Shown here: piece after piece, positions 13,712 through 22,483 of the stretch
How the letters are laid out: every line of letters begins with the position of its first letter
Position numbering within the stretch: the stretch's first letter is position 1
From: Methylacidiphilum kamchatkense Kam1
GTDB taxonomy: Bacteria > Verrucomicrobiota > Verrucomicrobiia > Methylacidiphilales > Methylacidiphilaceae
Reading direction: 5' to 3'
Assembly (NCBI RefSeq): GCF_007475525.1
Contig: NZ_CP037899.1
Coordinates: 1,240,001 to 1,304,000, forward strand
Length of the DNA: 64,000 bases
Program-made: the position numbers and the translations under genes
The notes under the pieces: model-generated
Seen by the model: only the letters and a program-made list of their open reading frames with translations
Told to the model about the DNA's origin: nothing
The model's database searches: none

Positions 13712-15025
13712 TTAGTTTTTAAAAAAAGGAAACTTGAAGCCTTCTTTAGAAGCAGAAAACTTTTTGATTAGTTTTCGGACAGAATCAAATCGTCTTAAAA
13801 ACTCATTGATCTCCGGGACAGTAGTCCCACTGCCTTTAGCTATTCTTAATTTTCTTTTGCCATTGATTATGTCAGGATTTTTTCTTTCTTCAGGCGTCAT
13901 GGAAAGGACAATGGCTTCAATCCTTTTGAGTTTTTTGTCATCGATCTCAATCTGTCCCTTCCCTGGGAATCCAGGCAGATAAGACAAAAGTTGGTCCAAT
14001 GGTCCTAGCTTTTTAAGCATTCGCATTTGGACAAGAAAGTCGTCTAATCCGAATTGCTTGGAACGTATTTTCTTTTCGATTTCAGCAAGCGACTCTTCTT
14101 TTATCTGGGCTTCCACTTTCTCAACAAAAGAAACAATATCTCCAAATCCAAAGAGCCGATCGACCAATCGTTCCGCCCGGAATGGCTCAAAAGCCTCAAC
14201 CTTTTCTCCCGTCCCTAAAAACAAAACGGAGAGTCCTGTGACTTTCTTAACAGAAAAGGCAGCTCCTCCTCTGGCATCCCCATCAAATTTCGAAAGGATC
14301 AACCCCGAAACAGGAATTTTTTCAAGGAAAGCCTTGACGATGTCTACCCCCTTTTGGCCAGTTGCCGAATCAATCACAAGAAGGACTTCCTGAGGAAGAA
14401 CCACAGAATAGGCAAGCTGTAATTCTTTTAGAAGCTCTTCGTCTAAATCTAGCCTCCCTGCTGTATCATAGATGACGACTGATAACCGATCTTGCTTTGT
14501 CTGCTCTAGGGCTCTCGAAAGGAAAGCTTCTATTTTTTCCTCTTTTTCTGGAGCATACACCGGAACATCAATCTGCGAAGCAAGCTTGGTTAGCTGCTCT
14601 CTAGCAGCTGGCCGCGTTAGATCCGCTGCCACAAGCCCTACCCTTTCCTTGTTCTTTTTGCACCATAAAGCAAGTTTAGCGGCTGTGGTCGTTTTTCCAG
14701 ACCCGTTTAACCCACACAGTAAGATTCTTAAAGGCCGTTCAGTCGATAATCCCTGTTTTTCTGAAGCAAGATATTCAATGAGAGCATCATGAAAAATCTT
14801 GATGAATTGATCCCCAGGCCGAATGCTTTCCAAGACTTTTGTACCTAGAGCCTTTTGTTTGACTTCTTCACAAATATCCCTAACGACCTGATAATGAACA
14901 TCAGCAGCTAAAAGAGCCAACCTAATTTCCCTTATGGCTCCAGAAATATTCTCTTCACTGAGTTTTCCATAGCCTCTTAGATTCTTAAAAAGCGACTGCA
15001 GTTTTTGCTGTAAAAGCTCTAACAT
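13712..15025 (-). CDS. ffh: Signal recognition particle protein Ffh
   Basis: A 437-residue SRP54 GTPase that targets membrane proteins to the translocon with 4.5S RNA and FtsY. The N domain is followed by G1 LCGLNGSGKTTTAAKLA, DTAGRLDLDE, and G4 LSKFDGDARGGAA. The M domain (from about residue 290) has the RNA-binding segment but ends soon after residue 430. It is 8 nt upstream of rpsP's side of the operon and directly downstream of pafA. Confidence 0.95.
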   Translation of the reverse strand: MLELLQQKLQSLFKNLRGYGKLSEENISGAIREIRLALLAADVHYQVVRDICEEVKQKALGTKVLESIRPGDQFIKIFHDALIEYLASEKQGLSTERPLRILLCGLNGSGKTTTAAKLALWCKKNKERVGLVAADLTRPAAREQLTKLASQIDVPVYAPEKEEKIEAFLSRALEQTKQDRLSVVIYDTAGRLDLDEELLKELQLAYSVVLPQEVLLVIDSATGQKGVDIVKAFLEKIPVSGLILSKFDGDARGGAAFSVKKVTGLSVLFLGTGEKVEAFEPFRAERLVDRLFGFGDIVSFVEKVEAQIKEESLAEIEKKIRSKQFGLDDFLVQMRMLKKLGPLDQLLSYLPGFPGKGQIEIDDKKLKRIEAIVLSMTPEERKNPDIINGKRKLRIAKGSGTTVPEINEFLRRFDSVRKLIKKFSASKEGFKFPFFKN

Positions 15026-15032
15026 AAATCAT

Positions 15033-16424
15033 CTACCAATGGATTGTATCAAAATACGGTCGTTTTGTCGTCTTTGGCATAACGCAGATAAAAGGATCAT
15101 CTAACGAATAATATTTCGAATTACCTATTTGAACATAATCCCAATCGATCACATAGGAAACATTTTCTTTAGCCAACTGTCTCATGAGCAGGCTGCGAAC
15201 ATAGGCTCTCGTATTTTTTGGAGGTTCTGCAAGATAGTTATTCTGTGGCCATGCGGGTAAAGCAAGATCCTCATAACTAGTATTGGGAAGAAGCCAGACA
15301 AAATTTTTTTTCCTATCGATCTGATGATATTCTAAATCCAAACTATCAAGCCAGGGATCATCCCAAGCTATCTTTTCTTGCCTACAAAAAGATTCGAGCA
15401 AAAAGCGCTTGGTGATCCAGTCTACTTTCCCAATCAGTTTTTCTTGATTCCCAGCTAATCCTTCCAGCACTTCTTTCCAAGCTTTTAAAACCCACAGCGC
15501 ATCTTCATCTTTTTCATCCAGTTTTTCAGCCTGAAGATAATACTCAGAAAGCACGTCCACAGGCGTCCACTTCCTCCCATCAGCCAATTCAATCAAACAA
15601 TCCGCCGTCGCTGCATGAGAAACAGCTTGCATTGTTTTTACGGGATCGGCAAAAGCAATCTTTGGCAGCATTCGGCATTCTAAAAGATCCAAAACGAGCG
15701 AGGTGGTTCCTACTTTTAAAGCTTGAGAAAAGGGAAGAATGTTGGAATCACCCAATAGCAGGTGAAGTCTACGAAATCTACAGGGATCGCTCAAGGGTTC
15801 GTCGCGGGCATTGATCAGCGCTCTGTTAAATTGAACCCATTCATAAATTTCGGTTTGTATGTAATCTGCCCGCTGCATGATTTGAAAAGGAACGGTTTTG
15901 CCATCCTTCTTATTGTATTTTTTTGCAGTCAACACACTGCCCACCCGACCGCTTCCCACCATCAGTCCTCTGATCGCAAGAAATGCCAACAGGGATTCCA
16001 CGTTTTGCTGAGTCAAAGGGGCGTTACGCCGAAGGAGATAATTTTCATGGCAACCAAACGTCGCCCCCGTATAATGATCAATGTTATTCTTGATAAAAGA
16101 AACGCTCTCACTCAACCCCAATTCATCCAATGCCGTTTGCAACAATCGCTCTCCTGCATAATCAGAAGCCACAAGATCGGCAAGATTTTTGCATTCTGAA
16201 GTACAATACTCCACATGCCCCATATCAATATAGAGCCTGCCGCCATTGAACAAAAATCCTCCATTTCCTGCGGGCTCATCGTAATCCCTATCATGAATAT
16301 CAATTAACCCAATTTTTTTTTCTAAAATAAGATAATCTTTCACCTGTTCTGGAACTGATAGTGGATCAGCCCCATGATTGAACAGACACCCATATTCGGT
16401 TTCGATGCCTACGATTCGCTTCAT
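15033..16424 (-). CDS. pafA: PafA-like ligase for the UBact modifier
   Basis: A 463-residue member of the Pup ligase/deamidase family (carboxylate-amine ligase fold). It begins MKRIVGIETEYG and has GGRLYIDMGHVEYCTSEC, which matches the ATP/Mg site of PafA. It lacks the DARGF segment of the depupylase loop seen in the paralog at 18456-20003, so I assign it as the ligase. It would join the C-terminal glutamate of the UBact protein to lysines on target proteins. It is the last gene of the cluster ARC-dop-UBact-prcB-prcA-pafA. Confidence 0.88.
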   Translation of the reverse strand: MKRIVGIETEYGCLFNHGADPLSVPEQVKDYLILEKKIGLIDIHDRDYDEPAGNGGFLFNGGRLYIDMGHVEYCTSECKNLADLVASDYAGERLLQTALDELGLSESVSFIKNNIDHYTGATFGCHENYLLRRNAPLTQQNVESLLAFLAIRGLMVGSGRVGSVLTAKKYNKKDGKTVPFQIMQRADYIQTEIYEWVQFNRALINARDEPLSDPCRFRRLHLLLGDSNILPFSQALKVGTTSLVLDLLECRMLPKIAFADPVKTMQAVSHAATADCLIELADGRKWTPVDVLSEYYLQAEKLDEKDEDALWVLKAWKEVLEGLAGNQEKLIGKVDWITKRFLLESFCRQEKIAWDDPWLDSLDLEYHQIDRKKNFVWLLPNTSYEDLALPAWPQNNYLAEPPKNTRAYVRSLLMRQLAKENVSYVIDWDYVQIGNSKYYSLDDPFICVMPKTTKRPYFDTIHW

Positions 16425-16465
16425 TGAAAAATCATCCTTTTTATTATCAGCTATAAAACTACCTC

Positions 16466-17233
16466 CTATGAGGGTGAGGAAAAGCCCAACAAAGCATCAT
16501 TGCCAACCGTAAAACTCTGCCGGTCATAATAGTTCCTATCCAAAAGCACAATTTCATAGTCTGCAAGCGTCGTTACTTCCATCTTTTCTTCAACCAATCG
16601 TAATCCCTCTGTCAAAGTGCTTTTCAAAGATTCCGGCTCAGATGCCCATAATATTAGTTTTATAGTATAGAGAACCATTTCTTTAAGGCTCTTCCATTCC
16701 AACGGGCCAAGGCTTTCTCTTTCTGTCCGAAACTTTTCCATTATTTCCTTTTTGCCACTGATCAAGAGTCCCTTGCTCATATCCCTGCCAAAACTGGTCC
16801 AGTAGCTTCCGTCATAGTCAACAATCCATCCTTCGTCCTTTTCGAGCTTTTCTCCAAGTTCAACAAACAAGCACCTAAAAAGAAAAGGAGCAGAAAAAAT
16901 CTGCTCAAATGCATTTTTAAGGCCTACCGCTAGACTGTAGGTCACAATCCGCCGAGCCGAAACATCTTCTCTAGATCTCGTAAAGCCTTCCAGATGAGCC
17001 AACTCAATGGCTGATTGCCTAATCTTTTCCATATCCGCCGGATGGCCTATACACCCCATAGCTAAGTGATCATAAATCTCATATATTTTAGGAGTGCCTG
17101 CTCGTTTCGTCGCAAGGATTATCCCTGGCTCACCGTTAACAACAGCTAGTGGCAGCGCAGCTTGCAGTTGATCTTCAATATACTCTCTTCTGTTCGCAAT
17201 GGCTTCCAGCCATCTGTAAGGCTCCTCTATCAC
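16466..17233 (-). CDS. prcA: Proteasome alpha subunit
   Basis: A 255-residue alpha-type 20S proteasome subunit. There is no catalytic N-terminal threonine. The segment GIILATKRAGTPKIYEIYDHLAMGCIG resembles actinobacterial PrcA, as does IELAHLEGFTRSREDVSARRIV. Alpha rings gate the beta rings and dock the ARC/Mpa ATPase. A gap of 163 nt separates it from prcB, unusually wide for this cluster. Confidence 0.9.
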   Translation of the reverse strand: MIEEPYRWLEAIANRREYIEDQLQAALPLAVVNGEPGIILATKRAGTPKIYEIYDHLAMGCIGHPADMEKIRQSAIELAHLEGFTRSREDVSARRIVTYSLAVGLKNAFEQIFSAPFLFRCLFVELGEKLEKDEGWIVDYDGSYWTSFGRDMSKGLLISGKKEIMEKFRTERESLGPLEWKSLKEMVLYTIKLILWASEPESLKSTLTEGLRLVEEKMEVTTLADYEIVLLDRNYYDRQSFTVGNDALLGFSSPS

Positions 17234-17396
17234 AACATTATCTCCTTTTATTTATATAAAGCTTTTATAGATTAAAAACAAAACCTTCTCTTGTCGATGT
17301 TCAAAAGAAAGCATAAAGATGAAAAGTTAATGATGGGGAAAAAGATAGTGGAAGCTCCGTGCTAAAAAGGCAAAAGAATAATGGGAACTGCTGAAG

Positions 17397-18233
17397 CTAT
17401 CCGGCTTCAGCAAACAGTTGTGCTAGCCTTTCTTCAGCTACTTCGACCACGCCACTTTTTTTCAATAGTTTTACCTGTGGATAGATTCTATTCCTTCGAT
17501 TGACTCCCCCAGTAGCCGTATCCGACTCGGCAGCAATGTCTAATAGCTGTAAGGCAAGCCTAATAGCTTCATCCTCATTCCTTTCTATACTTGGCTTTCC
17601 ACTCCATCTGTTAATATACTGCAGAATGCTTCGAACAGCAGGAGAGCCAGACCCGGAGGCCGCAAAATCTACGGTCTGAAACTGAGCTCCCAAAGCATCG
17701 TAAAAATAAATAGTCGGCTCCTCCTTACCAAAGGGATCTGCCAAGGCAAGCAACGGCACCACAATCCCAATGCCTTGCAAGGATAAAGCCATGTTATCCT
17801 TCAGTAACTTGCTAACCATTCTTACCTTGGCAGCAACACTAAGAGGCTGAAGCTGGCTTCTTCGATAAAACTCAAAGGAATGCTGAAGGACTCTGGCAAT
17901 CTCAAAAGCCGTTGCGGGCGTGCCCGCTATGGCTAAAATCGTGTTTCGGTCAATTGAAATCACTTTTTCAGCTCGTTCATGAATAACAAGATTGCCCGCC
18001 GTTGCCCTCCGATCCCCTGCTACAATCACTCCTTCTTTATAATAAAAGGCTAAAATTGTTGTTGATTCTACCCATACCCTTTCCGAAGTCGGTTTTGTGG
18101 GAAGCTCAGCGGCAGCAGGAAAAGGAAAGACTATGCCACTTTCCCTCAGTAACGACACAAAATCCCCTTTTAGTCTTTCCTCTCTGCCCGCTTCAACAGG
18201 CGAAGAAAACCTTAGATGTGGGTTTTGATTCAC
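17397..18233 (-). CDS. prcB: Proteasome beta subunit (proteolytic)
   Basis: A 278-residue beta-type subunit with a propeptide of about 57 residues. Cleavage would expose the nucleophilic threonine of TTILAFYYKEGV (Thr58). The following GVIVAGDRRATAGN and the SGSGSPAV segment are typical of active beta subunits. The start is a GTG that overlaps the UBact stop (GTGA), showing strong translational coupling with the modifier gene. The acidic/basic propeptide has no recognisable other domain. Confidence 0.92.
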   Translation of the reverse strand: MNQNPHLRFSSPVEAGREERLKGDFVSLLRESGIVFPFPAAAELPTKPTSERVWVESTTILAFYYKEGVIVAGDRRATAGNLVIHERAEKVISIDRNTILAIAGTPATAFEIARVLQHSFEFYRRSQLQPLSVAAKVRMVSKLLKDNMALSLQGIGIVVPLLALADPFGKEEPTIYFYDALGAQFQTVDFAASGSGSPAVRSILQYINRWSGKPSIERNEDEAIRLALQLLDIAAESDTATGGVNRRNRIYPQVKLLKKSGVVEVAEERLAQLFAEAG

Positions 18234-18439
18234 TCTCCAGTCCTCTGCCTGTAGCGGCGCGCTTGGTCAGGGTCGACTTTGCGCATACGCTTAAGAATTT
18301 CTTCTGTGTTCGGTTTTTCTACTTGTGGAGCCTGTGGTCCAGGGCCACTGCCTCCTCCTGGTCCTGGAGCCGGAATAACCTGTTTGTTTTTCTGTCCTTG
18401 CTCAGGCATGAGCATGATTACCTCCATGTTGTTTTTCAT
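18230..18439 (-). CDS. ubact: UBact, Pup-like protein modifier
   Basis: A 69-residue small protein between dop and prcB. Its middle is a Gly/Pro-rich disordered stretch (APGPGGGSGPGPQAP). Its C-terminal third is helical and basic and ends RRYRQRTGE, matching the UBact family, whose conserved C-terminal glutamate is the conjugation site. UBact was described as the Pup counterpart in Gram-negative bacteria such as Verrucomicrobia and Nitrospirae. The terminal residue is already Glu, so no deamidation by Dop would be needed before ligation. Later Met codons (residues 5, 9 and 11) are also possible starts. Confidence 0.88.
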   Translation of the reverse strand: MKNNMEVIMLMPEQGQKNKQVIPAPGPGGGSGPGPQAPQVEKPNTEEILKRMRKVDPDQARRYRQRTGE

Positions 18440-18455
18440 TGTTTGTACAATTTAA

Positions 18456-20003
18456 TCAATTCCCCATGGGCTTCAAATTCAAGTTCTTTACGATGTCCCC
18501 CACGCTTTTCGCATTATCGATCACTTCGCAATAGACCTCCAGATCCACTCCTGGAAAAGCAGAGGCTAAATCCAGTCTATAGGTCTGCCCATTGAACCGA
18601 AAGGCAATATAATCCCATTGGACGTTAATAAGATCTTTTGAAAATCTCTGGATACATTTGCCTCGAACAAAGGCCCGAGACGAGGAAGGAGGCTGTTGTA
18701 TAGCCTGACAAATGTCTTCATCAGTCGTTAATCGGATAATATCCCCTGCAGACTCCAAAGCGTAAAACAAGCCTCGGCTCCGATCAACCAGATGATACTC
18801 CAAATCAAGACTTTGAAGCCAAGGATCTTCCCAAGAAAGGTTCTGATCCTCCCGAAATGTCTGCAGTAGCCAGAACTTCGCCATCCAATCCAATCGGTCT
18901 TTCAACGCATAGGGATTGGTTGCCAAAGTTTGAAGGGTCTCTTTCCATGCCTTCCATACTTTTTCTTTTTCCGGATGATCTAAATCCACATACCGGGCAA
19001 CCCAATCTGCGTAGTCACTCTGCAGTTCAATGGCCGTGGTCCTCCCTCCCTGCGCTAGTTCTATTTCCCAGCGGAACTTCGGATCACGCGAGATGCTACG
19101 GTGTGCATAGAGCGGATCAGCCAAAAAGAATCTTTTAGGGATACGCTCATACTGCAAGGCTTCTAAGACTAAGGCAGTAGTTCCTACCTTGAGCCAAGTT
19201 GAAAATTCTGAAAGATTCGCATCGCCAAGAATCACATGAAACCTTCGATACAGCTTCGGATTGGCATGCGGTTCATCCCGAGTATTGATGATCGGCCGAC
19301 GATTCATTGTATCAATCCCGACAAGCTCCGTGAAAAAATCGGCTCGCTGTGAGATCTGATAGCCTCCTGGCATCCCATGATCTTCTCTTTCCCATCCAAG
19401 TTTTCCTGCTCCCGCATAGATCTGTCGGGTAATCAAAAAGGGAAGCATGCCTTCGACAAGCCTATCCCAAGGAATGAGACGGGGGATCAAATAGTTTTCA
19501 TGGCACCCGTAACTGTGACCAGCAAAATCCGTATTGTTTTTGTACATGCAAACGGTATGGCGTCTTTTTTTACTGGATGCCTTGGCACATTCTTCCAATA
19601 TCCTTTCTCCGGCTTTATCCTGAGCAATCAGTTCGATCAGCGTCGAACATTCCGCTGTGGAATATTCCGGGTGGGTATGATCGTTATAAAGTCTAGCCCC
19701 GTTGCGCAGGACAAAATCACTCTTTATTTCTTCAAAACTATAGGGTCTTTGTCGATCTTGAGAAAAAAAGTTGGCTTCATCCGCATCCTGCCGCAATTCC
19801 CTTGCCCGAAATCCTCTAGCATCTTGATGAGGATCTTCTTTGGTATAATCCCAAAGGTTTGGACTGCCAAGCTGAGAGGCAGAACGGACTAAATGAATCG
19901 ACTCTTCGACAACATCAATATCGGCATTCTCTAAAACAGAAATCCCAAATTCAGTTTCTAACCCAAAATACACTGACCAGGGCACAAGCCTCTTTTTTTC
20001 CAT
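18456..20003 (-). CDS. dop: Dop-like depupylase (UBact-removing enzyme)
   Basis: A 515-residue paralog of PafA. The N-terminal FGLETEFGISV and the segment WDYTKEDPHQDARGF are hallmarks of Dop; the latter lies at the start of the Dop loop. The acid/Mg motif HPEYSTAEC is also present. Dop removes Pup from substrates in actinobacteria; here it should act on UBact conjugates. It is 16 nt upstream of the UBact gene and 22 nt downstream of the ATPase gene, as in mycobacterial clusters. Confidence 0.88.
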   Translation of the reverse strand: MEKKRLVPWSVYFGLETEFGISVLENADIDVVEESIHLVRSASQLGSPNLWDYTKEDPHQDARGFRARELRQDADEANFFSQDRQRPYSFEEIKSDFVLRNGARLYNDHTHPEYSTAECSTLIELIAQDKAGERILEECAKASSKKRRHTVCMYKNNTDFAGHSYGCHENYLIPRLIPWDRLVEGMLPFLITRQIYAGAGKLGWEREDHGMPGGYQISQRADFFTELVGIDTMNRRPIINTRDEPHANPKLYRRFHVILGDANLSEFSTWLKVGTTALVLEALQYERIPKRFFLADPLYAHRSISRDPKFRWEIELAQGGRTTAIELQSDYADWVARYVDLDHPEKEKVWKAWKETLQTLATNPYALKDRLDWMAKFWLLQTFREDQNLSWEDPWLQSLDLEYHLVDRSRGLFYALESAGDIIRLTTDEDICQAIQQPPSSSRAFVRGKCIQRFSKDLINVQWDYIAFRFNGQTYRLDLASAFPGVDLEVYCEVIDNAKSVGDIVKNLNLKPMGN

Positions 20004-20025
20004 AAAACTTCACTTCTTTTTTTTA

Positions 20026-21714
20026 CTATACTACTCCAGAAACCATCTTTTTTCTAGGCATAATCGGCGATAGTTTTACAACATTCTGTGGATCATAATC
20101 CACGAGCTTCAACCAATCTTCCGTAATATCCGAAGGAGGGAATATATCATTTTCAATGTATTCTTCATCCAAGGCACAAAGCAGATCTTCCAGGCGTATC
20201 CCTCCCTGAAGAGGATCAACAATGGTTCTTTTTATGGCCATCCCCTTTGCTCTTTCTACAATGGAAGCAATAATAGCCCCACTATTCAGATCGCCCCTGT
20301 AGAGATATTCTTTTTTGCCGCTTCTTAAAGTCACTTCCAAAAACTGGTTGCGATCCGTTCGAGCGTATTGTTCTTCGACTACCTTTTCGATAAGAAAATC
20401 GATCACTTTCTTTGGATCTCCTCCAAACCTTTCCATAAGGCTTGTGTCATAAGGGAGATCTTCGGTAAGATAGATCCTAAAAATTTCCTTTGCTTCTTCT
20501 TTCCCTGGTCTGTTAACTTTGATCTTCCTGTCAATTCTTCCAGGCCTTAAGATTGCCGGATCGATGAGATCAGCCCTGTTAGAAGCAAGAATAATAACTG
20601 CCTGTCGCATCGACTCAATCCCATCCATTTCGGCACAAAACATCGGAACGAGGGTATTCAGTATACTATTAAATCTTCCCGCTCTTCGAGTCCCAAGGAT
20701 TGATTCGGCTTCATCAATGAAAATAAAAGGAAGATAATCTTCCTTGGCTAGCTCTCTGGCCTGTTCAAAAATCTCTCTAACCTGCCTTTCCGATTCACCG
20801 ACCCACATGTTGAGGATTTCAGGGCCTTTAATATGCATAAAATATTCTCGCTTCTCCTCCCCAGTCTTTTCTCGAAGCTTTTTTGTTAGATTATACGCCG
20901 TAGCTTTGCCAATAAGTGTCTTTCCGCATCCAGGCGGCCCGTACAACAAAAATCCTTTAGGCACATTGTGCTTGTACTTGGCAAAAATATCAGCATAGAG
21001 GAAAGGAAGCTCCACAGCATCCTTAATCGCTTCAATCGCCTGCTTCTGTCCACCGACTTTCTCCCATGGCAATTCTGGTACTCTCTCTAAGAGCTTCGAT
21101 GAGGTCTTGGTCGATTTTACCACTTCGATTGCCACTCGATGAGAAGGGTCTAACCGAATTTCTAATCCTGGCTTCAACCGCTCCTTCATCAGTGGGGAAG
21201 AGCGAATGACGATGAACGTACCAAAACTGCCTTCATGACTGATCCTTAACCGATTGTCAGGTAAAACGTCTAAAATCTTTACAATCAGTCCTGAAGCATC
21301 AAAACCTAAGTCGCCTACAATAGCATAGGCTTCATTTAAAAGCACTCTTGTGCCAATAAGCAATGTTTCCCCTTTTAAACGCGGATCAATAAGACAATAG
21401 AATTCAGAACCTCCTTGAGCCACAAGCCCTACGTCACTTTTAGGAAGATCCAAAAGCGTCCCTACTCGATTGGCTGGAGAAGAAAGCTTTTCAACAGCTT
21501 CATTTAGCTTCTCAATTGCCTCTCTTGCCTTATCACAGGTCTCTTCTAGATCCCCCACCCGCTTTCTTAGATAAAAAAAGGCTTCCCTACTGAAAGCATC
21601 ATTGACCAGAGACTGCCCAAGCAGATCAACTATTTGGAGGGTCGACAGCGAATCAAGTTTTTCGAATGTCATAGAGGTGTCCTTCATTCCAGTGTCTTTA
21701 ACTTTTTTTGCCAT
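20026..21714 (-). CDS. mpa: Proteasomal ATPase ARC/Mpa
   Basis: A 562-residue AAA+ unfoldase. An N-terminal coiled coil (about residues 50-80, CDKAREAIEKLNEAVEKL) would bind the modifier, two OB-type domains follow, then Walker A LYGPPGCGKTLIGKA and Walker B FIFIDEAESI. It would unfold UBact-tagged proteins into the PrcAB core. The C-terminus ends MVSGVV; actinobacterial Mpa ends in a GQYL-type motif whose penultimate Tyr opens the alpha ring, and that motif is not present. It is the first gene of the proteasome cluster. Confidence 0.92.
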   Translation of the reverse strand: MAKKVKDTGMKDTSMTFEKLDSLSTLQIVDLLGQSLVNDAFSREAFFYLRKRVGDLEETCDKAREAIEKLNEAVEKLSSPANRVGTLLDLPKSDVGLVAQGGSEFYCLIDPRLKGETLLIGTRVLLNEAYAIVGDLGFDASGLIVKILDVLPDNRLRISHEGSFGTFIVIRSSPLMKERLKPGLEIRLDPSHRVAIEVVKSTKTSSKLLERVPELPWEKVGGQKQAIEAIKDAVELPFLYADIFAKYKHNVPKGFLLYGPPGCGKTLIGKATAYNLTKKLREKTGEEKREYFMHIKGPEILNMWVGESERQVREIFEQARELAKEDYLPFIFIDEAESILGTRRAGRFNSILNTLVPMFCAEMDGIESMRQAVIILASNRADLIDPAILRPGRIDRKIKVNRPGKEEAKEIFRIYLTEDLPYDTSLMERFGGDPKKVIDFLIEKVVEEQYARTDRNQFLEVTLRSGKKEYLYRGDLNSGAIIASIVERAKGMAIKRTIVDPLQGGIRLEDLLCALDEEYIENDIFPPSDITEDWLKLVDYDPQNVVKLSPIMPRKKMVSGVV

Positions 21715-21781: not shown

Positions 21782-22483
21782 CTATAATTTATCCTTTTTA
21801 AGCTCACTAAGCAATTTTCGCACCAACCCTAGTTTATCATTAGCTTGCAGTATAGATCTACCGACTACAATGTGTGTTGCTCCCAGGGCTGCAGCTTCTT
21901 TCGGATCTATGGTCCGTTTCTGATCATCTCCAGCCAGTTTTTCCCACCGAATCCCAGGCACTATGATATAATCAGGCTGTTTTTCCATTTTTCGAATAGT
22001 CACTAGCTCTCTGCCCGAACAGACTATGCCTTTGAGCCCAGCCTCCAGTGCCAATCTCGTCAATAACCGCACTTCTTCTTCAACCGACCGATCGATGCCA
22101 ACTCTTTCTAGTGTTTTTTGCTCAGCACTCGTCAACACAGTTACTCCAATGACTTCTGTGGCACTTCCAGCAGCTGCCGCAACCGCTTCCCTGAGCATTT
22201 CTTCCCCGCCTAAAACATGAACCGTTGTAAACTTTACTTTGAGCTTGACAGCTTCAGAAACTGCTCTAAAAACAGTCTTAGGAATATCATGAAATTTTAG
22301 ATCAAGAAAGACGTCGGCACCGCTATCAATAATTTTCTTGATAACATCTGCCCCTCCAGCCATAAAAAGCTGACTGCCTACTTTAAAAAAATCGATCAGC
22401 GGCCTTAACAAATGAACCAAATTCAAAGCCTCGGACACATCGGATAAATCCAAAGCAACAATTGGTTTTAATTCCATGGACAC
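21782..22483 (-). CDS. pyrF: Orotidine 5'-phosphate decarboxylase
   Basis: A 233-residue PyrF that makes UMP, the last step of de novo pyrimidine synthesis. The active-site segment FLDLKFHDIPKTV with the catalytic Asp-Lys-Asp array is visible, as is the phosphate-binding end VVGRSIL. It overlaps the start of the divergent ispE gene by 8 nt (5' ends overlap), so the promoters must lie within the opposite genes. Confidence 0.94.
   Translation of the reverse strand: MSMELKPIVALDLSDVSEALNLVHLLRPLIDFFKVGSQLFMAGGADVIKKIIDSGADVFLDLKFHDIPKTVFRAVSEAVKLKVKFTTVHVLGGEEMLREAVAAAAGSATEVIGVTVLTSAEQKTLERVGIDRSVEEEVRLLTRLALEAGLKGIVCSGRELVTIRKMEKQPDYIIVPGIRWEKLAGDDQKRTIDPKEAAALGATHIVVGRSILQANDKLGLVRKLLSELKKDKL

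Follow-up and report, generated by a model that had tools for sequence, protein, structure and literature searches.

The window analysed here is a stretch of 64,000 nucleotides from Methylacidiphilum kamchatkense Kam1, and on its minus strand, at 15033-21714, it carries six intact reading frames which Pfam and NCBIfam identify as ARC/Mpa, Dop, UBact, PrcB, PrcA and PafA. The order ARC-Dop-modifier-PrcB-PrcA-PafA is that of the actinobacterial Pup-proteasome locus, and thus the six-gene cluster in actinobacterial order, as claimed by the original prediction, holds in its open frames as well as in its family identities. The prediction further described these bounds as a complete operon; the six genes are all there, but the cluster runs past 15033, with ffh starting only 7 nt on. 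The features are listed below.

13712..15025, minus strand, ffh, coding for the signal recognition particle protein and separated from pafA by 7 nt; a conserved neighbour in Methylacidiphilaceae
15033..16424, minus strand, PafA, ligase-like Pup_ligase family member, 463 aa, short insert; PF03136 375 bits
16466..17233, minus strand, PrcA, 20S alpha subunit, 255 aa, conserved N-terminus MIEEPYRWLEAI
16880..16882, minus strand, PrcA Leu118, at the position of the tyrosine-contacting Glu119 of M. tuberculosis; 43/43 have Leu/Ile/Met
17087..17089, minus strand, PrcA Lys49, equivalent to M. tuberculosis Lys52 (carboxylate contact); kept in 43/43
17159..17161, minus strand, PrcA Ala25, at the position of the tyrosine-contacting Arg26 of M. 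tuberculosis; 1/43 has Arg, lost in 42/43
17397..18233, minus strand, PrcB, 20S beta subunit, 278 aa; PF00227 92 bits
18230..18233, minus strand, GTGA, in which the stop codon of UBact and the start codon of prcB overlap (from the sequence and a junction tally across loci)
18230..18415, minus strand, UBact modifier, 61 aa when read from ATG 18415, its likely start; C-terminus RYRQRTGE
18421..18425, minus strand, GGAGG, likely UBact ribosome-binding site, 5 nt before ATG 18415 (from the sequence)
18456..20003, minus strand, Dop, depupylase/deamidase-like, 515 aa, long insert before NGARLYND; PF03136 530 bits
20026..21714, minus strand, ARC/Mpa-type proteasomal AAA ATPase, 562 aa; TIGR03689 460 bits
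20029..20040, minus strand, last four ARC codons S-G-V-V, a tyrosine-free tail in place of GQYL (from the sequence)
21782..22483, minus strand, pyrF, conserved upstream neighbour of the cluster in Methylacidiphilaceae

Promoter and terminator scans gave signals at or below the shuffled level. UBact is said to have been named in 2017 by Lehmann et al. The operon is not new for Methylacidiphilum, and its presence here only confirms the reports of 2008 and 2017; in the portions available of the two 2008 papers, proteasome genes are reported for Methylacidiphilum infernorum (PMC2474590) and Pup for Methylacidiphilum (PMC2588565).

In its longest reading (18230-18439) UBact scores 83.1 bits with NF033388 (cut-off 35) and 78.5 bits with PF20513 (cut-off 27.8), and as judged from the sequence the start is most likely ATG 18415, not the first in-frame ATG. 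The RYRQR segment and GE end foreseen for the modifier are both found, and the C-terminus following R-Y-[RK]-Q-R is G-[EQ] in 89/89 locus rows (54 Q and 35 E), a set which contains at least two duplicates (L017/L021 and L014/L057). The GTGA overlap with prcB was likewise as predicted, and since the -4 overlap, or one near to it, is widely shared and conserved across loci, the translation of UBact and prcB is probably coupled. No Pup family was listed for UBact in Pfam or NCBIfam even with E values as high as 0.1 admitted, nor did a UBact profile search pick up Nonomuraea Pup; in contrast to the actinobacterial Pup system, the modifier here is UBact, a family with a TGE/TGQ end. The original prediction took UBact for a Pup-like modifier described from gene context, which is where the literature reached stands; no biochemical study of a UBact system turned up in it. 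Compared with the UBact conjugation-proteasome system, the window locus is a member, with a family match above the curated cut-offs, the same partner genes, and no gene-content difference found.

As for the two Pup_ligase members, Dop scores 445 bits with the depupylase equivalog TIGR03688 (cut-off 492) and groups in the tree with Nonomuraea Dop with support 91/71, the actinobacterial Dop and PafA rows lying on long branches. The stretch up to NGARLY that holds the long insert of the Dop-loop region, beginning at ETE[FY]G, spans 90 residues; in Nonomuraea it spans 84 in Dop but 46 in PafA. The Asp that follows RLYx is present too, as RLYND, aligned to solved Dop. PafA scores 268 bits with the Pup ligase equivalog TIGR03686 (cut-off 551) and slightly higher, 282 bits, with the Dop model; in the tree, again with long branches, a single split groups it with PafA.

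For the 20S core, PrcB has a propeptide of 57 aa with GDFxxLL, followed by the catalytic Thr as residue 58 (18060-18062, minus strand), which aligns with residue 1 of the mature chain 1q5q_H. PrcA passes its family threshold narrowly (PF00227 22.6 versus a cut-off of 22.4), and its fold is confirmed by a structure model (pLDDT 93), which superposes on M. tuberculosis PrcA (3mka_M) with Z 24.2 and rmsd 2.9 over 217 aligned residues. In ARC, family matches and the model give the order of coiled coil, two OB domains, AAA domain with a W-V-G pore loop, beta-grasp and disordered tail. Altogether the locus resembles Mpa-Dop-Pup-PrcB-PrcA-PafA of M. tuberculosis in gene order, in the Pup_ligase pair, in the 20S alpha and beta subunits and in the ARC domain order, whereas the pore loop is W-V-G here and F-V-G in the actinobacterial system.

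A further difference from the actinobacterial system, which the original prediction did not note, lies at the ARC C-terminus. A penultimate tyrosine of the GQYL or HbYX kind occurs in 0/54 verrucomicrobial ARC ends, the window ending with SGVV, and the consensus of these ends is S-G-[VI]-[VI]. All 54 sequences close with V or I, preceded by V, I, M, T or A; because L017 and L021 are one and the same contig, the 54 ends represent at most 53 genomes. In front of this end the linker is variable in both sequence and length (12-17 residues in the 54 ends), and it is disordered in the model of the window ARC. By the same pipeline the ARCs of Nonomuraea and Tsukamurella, the only two actinobacteria among the tail controls, both end with GQYL. 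Like the HbYX-tailed caps (PAN and the Rpt ATPases), the window ARC is a 20S AAA cap whose C-terminal tail is flexible, and in both cases a lysine of the alpha subunit is conserved; yet the window ARC has no penultimate tyrosine.

The pocket of PrcA differs correspondingly in its sequence. The contacts of the ARC-tail tyrosine and carboxylate in M. tuberculosis are taken from the part available of PMC9599533, and the positions were read from an alignment of the window PrcA with 42 of the 68 usable named-locus sequences (those with >85% identity removed; partial sequences L028, L068 and L093 and rows from L013-L020 omitted), which is gap-free between the flanking invariant residues. The carboxylate-binding Lys52 and also Asp144, whose equivalent is kept in 43/43, are common to both systems, whereas the window pocket is without Arg26 and Glu119. 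Among three actinobacterial controls, Nonomuraea PrcA retains Arg26, Lys52, Glu119, Asp144 and Ser146, and Rhodococcus PrcA has Arg and Glu at the two tyrosine-contact positions.

Reading tail and pocket together, we incline to the view that docking in UBact proteasomes follows a tyrosine-free code, in which an S-G-[VI]-[VI]-COOH tail would fit a pocket without Arg26 and Glu119, the second position being always aliphatic or Met and the carboxylate lysine being kept. Specifically, the flexible and mostly aliphatic tail of ARC would enter the PrcA inter-subunit pocket, its terminal carboxylate forming a salt bridge with the invariant Lys49 and its aliphatic end making a hydrophobic contact with Leu118, so as to replace the contacts of Tyr with Arg26 and Glu119 in M. 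tuberculosis. For archaeal 20S, the section available of PMC12352868 states that gate opening requires no more than a filled hydrophobic pocket. This code and GQYL may be mutually orthogonal. Since every tail and pocket sequence is from the same phylum and the sequences are related to each other, the swap may reflect a single ancestral change.

Alternatively, the ARC tail might have no part in docking at all, the beta-grasp hairpins alone holding ARC on the 20S and the aliphatic end being a by-product. The beta-grasp hairpin of M. tuberculosis, according to the excerpts available of PMC9599533 and PMC8755798, touches the alpha ring, and degradation depends on it; a hairpin is predicted in the window ARC model too; however, the end stays V or I throughout despite the variable linker, and the carboxylate-binding lysine is invariant, which makes this explanation unlikely. 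It seems similarly improbable that we are dealing with an ordinary actinobacterial-type Pup-proteasome, gained by gene transfer and functionally the same, with tail and pocket changed by neutral drift. The shared gene order fits such a transfer, and a transfer from Actinobacteria is inferred in the parts available of PMC5666114 and PMC2474590, but drift would not yield the pattern because the tail end and the Leu/Ile/Met at position 118 are conserved over PrcA sequences only ~29-50% identical to that of the window.

With the tyrosine-free ARC-PrcA docking included, the cluster probably encodes a complete UBact conjugation-proteasome pathway, for which family matches and solved relatives also speak and whose ligation, degradation and docking mode we infer as follows. 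PafA would ligate the C-terminal glutamate of UBact to substrate lysines, for which deamidation would not be needed because the window UBact already ends in Glu, and Dop would take UBact off the substrates. The ARC coiled coil is expected to capture the UBact helix, whereupon the flexible Pro/Gly-rich N-terminus would be threaded via the W-V-G pore loops into the barrel of PrcA and PrcB; there Thr58 of PrcB, after propeptide removal, would act as the nucleophile. Should the docking code be real, an ATPase that caps the 20S would do without the HbYX-type tyrosine. Moreover, a real swap of tail and pocket would separate the role of the tyrosine (binding) from that of the hydrophobic side chain and carboxylate (gate opening), and would do so in a system that many species carry naturally, with a concrete prediction refutable by one mutation, and the signature may serve as a sequence test for UBact-type proteasomes.

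The association of these genes is not by chance, since UBact over the cut-off, two Pup-ligase family genes and bacterial PrcB coincide in the same 9 of 387 genomes of a phylum sample. In many related genomes the pathway genes are dispersed rather than clustered. Pup is known to function without a proteasome in some actinobacteria, and among 41 loci flanked by 4 kb or more on either side there are 17 with none of ARC, Dop and PafA near UBact, but that UBact marks proteins for a non-proteasomal fate, with the shared locus only historical, is very doubtful, as UBact-PrcB is the sole linkage retained in 81/81 loci (PrcA on the same strand in 72/81) and PrcB is present in 9/9 of the genomes with UBact in the phylum sample. 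The loci with only UBact, PrcB and PrcA are not ligase-less, an idea we rejected; as Pup_ligase (PF03136) members were found in 31/31 and strong ARC matches (410-467 bits) in 19/19 UBact genomes searched, the ARC and ligase genes are dispersed and not lost. Cores apparently without PrcA in G398-G403 were also rejected, PrcA being elsewhere in 5/6 of these genomes and not found in G398.

In the contig scan for UBact loci, Nitrospirota, Armatimonadota and NC10 are named in none of the 80 titles, which are the best 80 of 326 candidates. Bpa/PafE (PF10759) was matched in 0/9, with the controls equally without a match, hence no absence is claimed. One Streptomyces match (H5), partial, lying among transposases and without an annotated gene beneath, was set aside. 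No ARC relatives were found in viral contigs, and the plasmid records gave only actinobacterial relatives, two of which served as controls.

The proteasome operon of the window is real and was previously known. In fact all six genes of the minus-strand cluster lie where the original prediction had placed them, with agreeing coordinates and with matches to the expected Pfam or NCBIfam families, in a genome of 2.2 Mb on one contig. Among the matches listed, the nearest named relative is Methylacidiphilum sp. Yel, whose UBact and ARC are 97% and 99% identical, respectively. The cluster is preceded by pyrF, and ffh starts 7 nt past its end with rpsP and then trmD beyond; in the complete loci of Methylacidiphilaceae the cluster is flanked by PyrF and Ffh. 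The G+C content is 0.34-0.39 across 32001-60000 of the window, against 0.41-0.45 in its left half. UBact is reportedly treated in Lehmann 2017. As stated in the available parts of three papers, proteasome genes are present in M. infernorum and were likely transferred from Actinobacteria (PMC2474590), a Pup-like protein with a G-[EQ] end exists in Methylacidiphilum (PMC2588565), and alpha and beta subunits including the verrucomicrobial ones form a separate Gram-negative cluster (PMC5666114).

As for the two Pup_ligase members, neither Dop nor PafA of the window reaches the NCBIfam equivalog cut-offs. A 64-row tree groups the window Dop with Nonomuraea Dop (support 91/71) and puts the window PafA across one split; the insert ahead of NG[AG]RLY is Dop-like in the window Dop, 90 residues vs 84 in Nonomuraea Dop, and short in the window PafA, 57 residues vs 46 in Nonomuraea PafA. 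The predicted names are retained, that of PafA less firmly because of the long branches in the tree.

At its longest, the UBact frame would begin at 18439; a GGAGG at 18421-18425 is followed 5 nt on by an ATG at 18415, and only from about this point does the M-P-[DE] conservation set in (MP[DE]xxx[KR] is matched by 88 of 89 UBact rows). This spacing and onset suggest a UBact of 61 residues starting at 18415. Its stop and the prcB start share GTGA, as originally predicted, and close spacing recurs among the 89 locus rows: the first ATG or GTG of prcB is at -4 in 39 (31 ATG, 8 GTG), at -1 in 20, between 0 and +6 in 22 and at other positions in 6, with 2 rows unassigned. From this tally it is reasonable to infer coupled UBact-prcB translation across the group, which supports the coupled production that had been read from the overlap. 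Of 89 UBact rows (loci L013-L100 plus the window), 54 end in Gln and 35 in Glu, and the two are mixed even inside one family (TGQ in L013, TGE in the window), so that the need for deamidation may switch easily.

In a phylum sample of 387 genomes, UBact over the cut-off, two Pup_ligase members and bacterial PrcB co-occur in the same 9. Two weaker UBact matches, located inside long frames, were taken as chance, and the Pup_ligase match of a tenth genome covers 27 residues only, at a contig end. Bacterial PrcB also occurs in a tenth genome, G004, where PrcA is its sole companion and both frames are intact (locus L154, G004:C303:1-7055); its assembly yielded no UBact and no Pup_ligase, and for ARC nothing beyond an AAA match near 100 bits. 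Either the assembly has a gap or the contig is a contaminant, or this proteasome lacks tagging genes. Moreover, a scan of named genomes gave 326 UBact-encoding places, and nearly all of the best 80 of 326 are labelled Verrucomicrobiota. The gene set is complete in 16 of the 41 loci with at least 4 kb on each side (the window included); in 17 neither ARC nor Dop nor PafA lies close by, and the other 8 fall in between. UBact is followed by PrcB in 81/81 loci, and PrcA shares the strand in 72/81. The ARC, Dop and PafA missing from partial loci sit elsewhere in the genome, as PF03136 members were found in 31/31 genomes searched and a strong ARC match (410-467 bits) in 19/19.

The tail of ARC differs from that of the actinobacterial system. 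M. tuberculosis Mpa, according to the available part of PMC9599533, docks via a GQYL tail, in which the tyrosine forms a hydrogen bond with Arg26 or Glu119 of PrcA and the carboxylate is able to pair with Lys52, whereas the window ARC ends in KKMVSGVV without tyrosine. A penultimate tyrosine is absent from all 54 verrucomicrobial ARC ends that are complete (35 from genes near UBact, 19 from dispersed ones). V and I share the final position evenly, with 27 ends each; the penultimate residue is V in 33 ends, I in 16, M in 2, T in 2 and A in 1, and in 44 ends it is preceded by G, A or S. The linker after the conserved N-V-V block varies from 12 to 17 residues and is disordered in the predicted structure (pLDDT <50 at residues 554-562). 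In the same pipeline, the Nonomuraea and Tsukamurella controls both end in TGQYL.

The pocket residues were counted in 43 PrcA sequences aligned by profile to the M. tuberculosis PrcA chain, the numbering of which agrees with the available part of PMC9599533 on Arg26, Lys52, Glu119, Asp144 and Ser146. Lys52 and Asp144 equivalents are Lys and Asp in 43/43; the Glu119 equivalent is Leu 36, Ile 5 and Met 2, and that of Arg26 is Arg in 1/43, chiefly Gly, Ser or Ala. With Ser in only 16/43, the Ser146 contact is not retained as a rule. Nonomuraea PrcA retains all five, and Rhodococcus PrcA has Arg and Glu at positions 26 and 119. Thus where the tyrosine is lost, the residues for its contact are changed and the carboxylate-contact residue is not. 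At the sequence level the change in tail and pocket is well supported, its main weaknesses being that these sequences are mutually related and that the UBact loci sampled are all verrucomicrobial; how the tyrosine-free tail docks is inferred. Such a tail would be plausible by analogy with the archaeal proteasome, in which filling of a hydrophobic pocket alone opens the gate (PMC12352868, available part). The altered tail and pocket are undescribed as far as searched: the tyrosine-free ARC tail had no mention in the literature covered, with most subscription journals and Lehmann 2017 outside its scope and absence therefore unproven.

PrcA is the most divergent of the six proteins, above the Pfam cut-off by 0.2 bits; its predicted structure (from 43 sequences; mean pLDDT 93) can be superposed on M. 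tuberculosis PrcA over 217 residues (Z 24.2, rmsd 2.9). Aligned to bacterial beta subunits of known structure, PrcB has residue 58 at the place of Thr1, which gives a propeptide of 57 residues (18063-18233); a GDFxxLL-like motif is found in the propeptides of most relatives. In the whole genome that holds the window (G000), the bacterial beta-subunit model matches PrcB only, which hints that HslV is absent; the E. coli and B. subtilis controls also match, presumably through HslV. The prcB-prcA gap is 163 nt (17234-17396), the other junctions being short, and it contains a single terminator-like hairpin (17312-17283), with an overall scan signal no higher than in shuffles. The PrcA N-terminus, M-[IT]-[ED]-E-P-Y-R-W-[LV]-E-A (17174-17233), is conserved far above most of PrcA and sits where the alpha-ring gate residues would be.
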